Below, piece by piece: positions 26,921 to 59,901 of a stretch of 64,000 bases of DNA; position 1 is the first letter of the stretch; the number at the start of each line of letters is the position of its first letter. Source of the stretch: Sulfurimonas sp. HSL-3221. GTDB taxonomy: Bacteria > Campylobacterota > Campylobacteria > Campylobacterales > Sulfurimonadaceae. The notes under the pieces are model-generated. The model worked only from the letters and a program-made list of their open reading frames with translations. It was not told the DNA's origin and ran no database searches. The stretch is taken from positions 1,860,001 through 1,924,000 of the forward strand of contig NZ_CP087998.1 of the NCBI RefSeq assembly GCF_021044585.1, written 5' to 3'. Position numbers and translations under genes: made by a program.

Positions 26921-26997
26921 TCAAACTTCCCAAATCTTCAACTCGAAGACCCGGCTGATCGGCTTCTTTCGATGCCTCTCATCGTTTGTGGACGGGA

Positions 26998-27026
26998 ATT
27001 ATAGGGGATTCCTAAAGCAATGTCAA
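26998..27026 (-). promoter_or_regulatory. rrn operon promoter
   Basis: On the minus strand: TTGACA (27021-27026), a 17-base spacer, TATAAT (26998-27003). Both hexamers match the consensus exactly, rare in this phylum, where -35 boxes are weak. The bases after the -10 (CCCGTCC) are GC-rich, as expected for stringent control. The first transcribed bases match those of the tRNA-Lys promoter at 59666. Confidence 0.92.
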
Positions 27027-59665: not shown

Positions 59666-59694
59666 TTGACTTTGAAGTGCGTTTTTCGTATAAT
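59666..59694 (+). promoter_or_regulatory. tRNA-Lys/tRNA-Glu promoter, rrn-like
   Basis: TTGACT (59666-59671), 17-base spacer and TATAAT (59689-59694). The bases from the -10 through about 28 positions match the rrn promoter with one difference. A/T tracts and a GGCA/TGCC inverted repeat (59645-59656) lie just upstream. Confidence 0.9.
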
Positions 59695-59735
59695 TCCCGT
59701 CCACAAACGAAGAGAGCTTATCTTAACGTTTGAAT

Positions 59736-59811
59736 GTCTCGTTAGCTCAGCTGGTAGAGCACGTCACTTTTAATGATGTGGCCGTTGGTTCGAATCCAAC
59801 ACGGGACACCA
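59736..59811 (+). tRNA. tRNA-Lys(TTT)
   Basis: 76 bases with encoded CCA. Acceptor GTCTCGT pairs with ACGGGAC (one G-U), D-loop AGCTGGTAGAG, T-loop GTTCGAATC, anticodon TTT in ACTTTTAA. Confidence 0.97.
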
Positions 59812-59826
59812 TTGTTACTCCTTAGT

Positions 59827-59901
59827 GGCCCCATCGTCTAGCGGTTAGGATCCCAGATTTTCATTCTGGTTACCGGAGTTCGAGTCTCCGTGGGGTCACC
59901 A
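59827..59901 (+). tRNA. tRNA-Glu(TTC)
   Basis: 75 bases with encoded CCA. Acceptor GGCCCCA pairs with TGGGGTC, T-loop GTTCGAGTC, anticodon TTC in TTTTCATT. It follows tRNA-Lys by 15 bases and shares its promoter. Confidence 0.97.

Follow-up and report, generated by a model that had tools for sequence, protein, structure and literature searches.

A promoter core common to the rRNA operons and a tRNA-Lys/Glu unit of a Sulfurimonas genome leads into a conserved RNA helix

Results

A promoter core restricted to stable-RNA genes

In the genome of Sulfurimonas sp. HSL-3221, a tRNA-Lys(TTT)-tRNA-Glu(TTC) unit shares with the rrn operons a promoter core that is found only at stable-RNA genes and that ends, across the family, at about position +6. 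According to the predicted folds, the last bases of this core, ACAAAC, make up the 5' arm of an RNA helix beginning at the predicted first transcribed base or immediately downstream of it, and this helix is conserved in the leaders of both kinds of transcript. The best explanation, which we put at a little better than even, is a stable-RNA promoter module joined to a 5'-terminal stem-loop whose role would be to protect or insulate the precursor.

The window, that is, the whole stretch of DNA analysed, is 64,000 nucleotides long, and its relevant features are collected in Table 1. An initial annotation had noticed that from TATAAT onward 28 bases read alike in front of the tRNA genes and of an rrn operon, with one mismatch, and that TTGAC[A/T] lies exactly 17 bases upstream of both -10 hexamers. 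Direct reading of both strands confirmed this: positions 59689-59716 of the plus strand (TATAATTCCCGTCCACAAACGAAGAGAG) and 27003-26976 of the minus strand (TATAATTCCCGTCCACAAACGATGAGAG) differ at 1 of 28 positions, where the tRNA copy has A59711 and the rrn copy a T. The upstream parts differ, as had also been remarked, and the flanks of the two segments are unrelated on both sides; the tRNA copy ends 19 bp before the tRNA genes and the rrn copy 224 bp before the 16S rRNA gene. Shuffled versions of the window gave zero matches to the 28-base segment, and none is expected by chance.

Table 1. Coordinates of the promoter and leader features in the window
Feature	Position	Strand	Basis and remarks
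tRNA-Lys/Glu -35 hexamer TTGACT	59666..59671	+	Read directly; among 16 perfect TTGACW-N16-18-TATAAT sites genome-wide
tRNA-Lys/Glu -10 hexamer TATAAT	59689..59694	+	Read directly; 17-bp spacer from -35
tRNA-Lys/Glu discriminator TCCCGTCC, 8 nt, C-rich, same as rrn	59695..59702	+	Read directly; family-wide form TCCCNTCC
tRNA-copy bases after discriminator, ACAAACGAAGAGAG	59703-59716	+	Read directly
Predicted +1, A, ninth base after TATAAT	59703	+	Predicted from helix starts
CAAACG, 5' arm of 5'-terminal leader helix	59704..59709	+	Pair probabilities 0.99-1.0 in fold of leader with tRNA-Lys; leader z-score -4.56
GAGA, 5' arm of inner helix, pairs with 59721-59724	59712..59715	+	Fold
TCTT, 3' arm of inner helix	59721..59724	+	Fold
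CGTTTG, 3' arm of leader helix, 3 nt before tRNA-Lys	59727..59732	+	Fold; GTTTG(T) kept in relatives
tRNA-Lys(TTT)	59736..59811	+	ARAGORN, Rfam
tRNA-Glu(TTC)	59827..59901	+	ARAGORN, Rfam
rrn -35 hexamer TTGACA	27021..27026	-	Read directly; 17-bp spacer to -10
rrn -10 hexamer TATAAT	26998..27003	-	Read directly
rrn discriminator TCCCGTCC	26990..26997	-	Read directly; genome search
rrn-copy bases after discriminator, ACAAACGATGAGAG	26989-26976	-	Read directly
CAAAC, 5' arm of helix closing rrn leader domain	26984..26988	-	Fold z -3.67; +7/+8 covariation and paired insertion in relatives
GTTTG, 3' arm of rrn leader helix	26922..26926	-	Fold, comparison of relatives
boxA-like GATCATTGAAAACTAAG, directly after rrn helix	26904..26920	-	Conserved across family
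16S rRNA	start 26751	-	ARAGORN/Rfam annotation

A search of the complete 2.52-Mb genome, allowing up to 3 mismatches, found the segment at exactly four places, the three rrn operons and the tRNA-Lys/Glu unit; it is thus confined to stable-RNA genes rather than spread over many unrelated promoters. The tRNA-Lys/Glu and rrn promoters all combine TTGACW, a 17-bp spacer and TATAAT with the discriminator TCCCNTCC followed by ACAAAC. An Rfam search of the leaders returned no known element apart from tRNA and rRNA.

It had further been claimed that consensus -35 boxes are unusual in this phylum, and this holds. Perfect TTGACW-N16-18-TATAAT sites number 16 in the genome, 10 of them at stable-RNA genes (3 rrn, 7 tRNA units), and promoters of Campylobacter jejuni lack a clear -35 box as a rule (PMC3656092). 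Most other tRNA promoters of the genome are likewise of this Campylobacterota housekeeping kind: they have no -35 hexamer, and their discriminator is another one, in most cases of the TTCGGCCTC type, whereas the -35 hexamers of the tRNA-Lys/Glu and rrn promoters are perfect or nearly so. Because of the rarity of -35 boxes and the other discriminator of most tRNA promoters, the tRNA-Lys/Glu unit groups with rrn and not with ordinary tRNA promoters. As a side observation, four rrn promoters of relatives (L040, L051, L102 and L118, from G017, G008, G027 and G010) lack TTGACA and instead carry a TTAAGC-type sequence some 16 bp upstream of TATAAT, and many of the tRNA promoters without a -35 box in the window's genome are preceded by a similar TTAAG-like element.

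Conservation of the core across the family

The genome belongs to the Campylobacterota family of Sulfurimonas and Sulfuricurvum, which are also the named relatives in our sample of 228 searchable genomes. Many genera have a promoter of the rrn type in front of tRNA-Lys, and every genus for which an rrn leader was read has one in front of rrn. The piece common to both loci family-wide is TATAAT-TCCCNTCC-ACAAAC, ending at about +6. Exact matches in a collection of 84,980 species amounted to 37 records; wherever these name an organism, it belongs to the Campylobacterota, in most cases to Sulfurimonas or Sulfuricurvum.

The initial annotation had ascribed the likeness to selection on the discriminator and the initial transcribed region rather than to a recent duplication of a long region. 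Recurrence of the pair in many genera, with unrelated flanks, supports the rejection of such a duplication. Selection on the discriminator and on the start of the transcript is supported as well, but over a shorter stretch than had been proposed: when the tRNA and rrn promoters of one genome are compared, identity is 91% over +1 to +6 (ACAAAC) and 43% over +7 to +14. This boundary is expected, since ACAAAC is the 5' arm of the helix described below.

A helix at the start of the tRNA-Lys and rrn leaders

In the window, the 33-nt tRNA-Lys leader folds with a minimum free energy of -9.0 kcal/mol (z -4.56), and 0 of 200 shuffles did as well. Its pairs keep a probability of about 0.99 or more when tRNA-Lys is included in the fold, and the only mismatch to rrn, at 59711, falls in the internal loop of the leader.

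We then compared 119 distinct tRNA-Lys leaders, nearly all of them from the family. The mean longest helix near the predicted start was 5.63 bp in leaders of the rrn type and 5.01 bp in the others, against 3.67 bp (sd 0.14) and 3.65 bp (sd 0.12), respectively, after shuffling of the downstream part. When the 3' parts were re-dealt among leaders, the helix averaged 4.29 bp (sd 0.11) instead of 5.29 bp; in the rrn-type leaders, where the 5' arm hardly varies, the same exchange had a small effect (6.02 to 5.67 bp, sd 0.07). Mean folding z was -2.0 and -3.4 for the two leader types; as relatives are not independent and shuffles ignore relatedness, the probabilities attached to all these comparisons serve as a guide only. 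Among the rrn-type leaders with helices of at least 5 bp, 42 of 47 helices start at the ninth to eleventh base after TATAAT, the ninth being the commonest. If the RNA started 2 or 3 bases earlier than predicted, the helix would not be quite terminal.

Other tRNA-Lys leaders build an equivalent hairpin from unrelated arms (ATAAATTGT/ACAGTTTAT, CTCTTAA/TTAAGAG, or the CTCACAAGC type), and outside the family yet another unrelated pair, ATTTTAAG/CTTAAAAT, does the same. The rrn leaders tell a similar story: in 73 of them, +2 to +5 pair in all and +6 in 70, while +7 and +8 covary (p < 0.001). The leader of one genome (G165) carries a matching insertion, one extra A in the 5' arm and one extra T in the 3' arm, giving CAAAAC/GTTTTG. 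As comparative evidence for the helix, this paired insertion and the unrelated arms are stronger than the shuffles. Conserved base pairing at the 5' end, as in a stabilising stem-loop, is thus present in both tRNA-Lys and rrn leaders.

The rrn helix CAAAC/GTTTG spans a branched domain and ends at GATCATTGAAAACTAAG, which we call boxA-like for its similarity to Bacillus rrn leaders. The 3' arm GTTTG adjoins this element, and its conservation could serve boxA itself. Within the domain, the window (26989-26921, minus strand) and the rrn leaders of relatives share a short hairpin in which the AGTT loop (GAGTT/AAGTT) is conserved; between genomes, the two sides of its stem change together (CCTAAAGTTTAGG, CTTCGAGTTGAAG, CATCGAGTTGATG), and it may be a boxB-like binding element.

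A hairpin on every tRNA leader was considered and rejected, as 7 or 8 of the 23 other tRNA units of the genome fold one. Units with leaders under about 20 nt mostly have none in the window's genome, which indicates that the hairpin is not required for every tRNA, and it is absent in some order-level relatives. As a control, the 6 perfect TTGACW/TATAAT sites away from stable-RNA genes, a small set of predicted promoters, mostly lack a 5' hairpin, L212 being the clearest exception. Two further observations concern leaders. Four tRNA units of the window's genome, mostly with longer leaders (G000:C1:142872, 1462856, 1769591 and 1310617), fold 5'-proximal hairpins of unrelated sequence. In three relatives (G022, G021 and G016; leaders L085, L081 and L082), the tRNA-Lys leader has a hairpin followed by a T run just before the tRNA, an arrangement that resembles an intrinsic terminator about 25 nt past the start.

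Discussion

Proposed module

We propose that the tRNA-Lys/Glu unit is placed on an rrn-type module made of a consensus -35 hexamer, a 17-bp spacer, TATAAT and an 8-nt C-rich discriminator of the form TCCCNTCC; in both rrn and tRNA-Lys/Glu, transcription would probably begin at the A of CCACAAAC. The DNA part would provide strong initiation, tunable by growth rate. The first bases, ACAAAC, would supply the 5' arm of the helix with which the RNA begins. In the tRNA transcript, a small hairpin closed by this helix would occupy the leader as far as the tRNA; in the rrn transcript, the helix would close the branched domain that ends at boxA. The RNA part would thereby hide the 5' end and make the leader unavailable for pairing with tRNA or rRNA sequences, so that the precursor would be guarded from 5'-end-dependent decay and from mispairing for as long as it carries the leader, which is taken off by RNase P or by rRNA processing. 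As tRNA precursors are processed quickly, however, protection of the 5' end may matter little.

In bacterial mRNA, a stem-loop at the 5' terminus has a known stabilising effect, since both RppH and RNase E require the 5' end to be single-stranded (PMC3997798). The hairpins described here resemble the mRNA-stabilising stem-loops of the ompA and papA type in lying at the 5' end or within one or two nucleotides of it. They differ in being carried by tRNA and rRNA precursors, where stabilisation is presumed. In the open-access literature, we found no paper on Sulfurimonas rrn promoters, nor any on 5' hairpins of tRNA leaders.

Alternative explanations

Gene conversion or a partial duplication, copying sequence from one of the two loci to the other, would account for the identity that reaches +14 in the window's genus, and for the tRNA and rrn copies of one genome (G005) in which all 28 of 28 bases are identical. 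The stretch is very short and its flanks are unrelated, however, and agreement of 75-88% over +7 to +14 is kept only in the window's genus and in genus g8; over the sample, this region agrees at 43% within genomes against 35% between genomes. The free base of the discriminator (TCCCNTCC) differs between the tRNA and rrn promoters in 11 of 33 genomes, close to what is expected if the two are unlinked; the loci have the same state in 22 of 33, where 20.0 would be expected (p = 0.14). With agreement so little above chance, gene conversion between the two loci is unsupported at the level of the family. Moreover, the bases from TATAAT to ACAAAC are unchanged in genomes where the rrn -35 hexamer has been exchanged for a TTAAGC-type or similar sequence (G017, G008 and G027). 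The recurrence in many genera, the unlinked discriminator base and the -35 exchange argue for selection on -10 to +6, and we consider copying between the loci very improbable. An antitermination role was also weighed, in which the 5' helix would be the boxB-like part of a nut-like site, borrowed by the tRNA unit to modify RNA polymerase. The boxB, boxA and boxC elements of bacterial pre-rRNA load an antitermination complex (PMC10250234), and in the rrn leader a base-paired domain likewise stands directly before a boxA-like sequence and encloses the AGTT-loop hairpin. In contrast to the known boxB-boxA element, the helix here has its start in the first transcribed bases and a branched domain as its interior, and it also occurs before a tRNA: no boxA-like sequence was seen by eye between the promoter and tRNA-Lys, the loops of the tRNA-Lys leaders are not conserved, and a unit of two tRNAs would hardly need antitermination. 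This role therefore seems improbable to us, if less so than copying.

The remaining question is whether control at the DNA level would suffice, the discriminator and initial bases being kept for the action of ppGpp/DksA and the initiating nucleotide on the open complex, with the RNA helix incidental. The initial annotation had read the discriminator and the initial transcribed bases in this regulatory way. With its 8-nt C-rich discriminator followed by A, the promoter is like the stringently controlled rrn P1 promoters of E. coli. The likeness extends to the consensus-like -35 and -10 hexamers, to a long GC-rich discriminator, to A as the likely first base, and to the service of rRNA and some tRNA genes by one kind of promoter; growth-rate and stringent control operate there, whereas no response to ppGpp, DksA or Fis is known here, and we know of no described helix that starts from the first bases of E. 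coli rrn P1. The genome encodes, by domain matches only, one RelA/SpoT protein and three zf-dskA_traR proteins, that is, a ppGpp synthetase and DksA-type proteins, which makes ppGpp control possible alongside the GC-rich discriminator TCCCGTCC. The discriminator persists even in promoters whose -35 has been replaced, and pairing alone would not require ACAAAC to be so uniform. Control at the DNA level alone nevertheless would not lead one to expect a complementary 3' arm, whereas a covarying one is present, and each unrelated 5' arm has a 3' partner of its own; most tRNA promoters of the genome, besides, have the different discriminator noted above. The regulatory reading had missed that ACAAAC is a covarying helix arm, for which ppGpp/DksA control has no need, and as a full explanation it appears unlikely, though it is the alternative to which we give most weight. 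As part of the stable-RNA module with its 5'-terminal stem-loop, ppGpp/DksA control acting on the discriminator is plausible from the sequence. The three DksA/TraR zinc-finger genes are located at G000:C1:1118385, 1084191 and 1461381, the last of them lying about 1.4 kb away from a tRNA unit that has a consensus promoter and is encoded on the other strand.

Significance

Conservation just downstream of a transcription start is usually read as a sign of initiation control; here, the conserved bases are also the arm of an RNA helix, and the DNA and RNA roles therefore need separating by experiment. For the Campylobacterales, we tentatively suggest, as a possibility somewhat short of even, that a 5'-terminal stem-loop is a general design of stable-RNA precursors, in which the first bases would serve both as initial transcribed region and as arm of a helix that protects the RNA or insulates its folding, making up a combined DNA/RNA module common to rRNA and selected tRNA operons. 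If the hairpin is general on the tRNA and rRNA precursors of this group, it would offer bacteria, possibly those that depend on RNase J-type decay, a simple and testable way to protect or insulate stable-RNA precursors.
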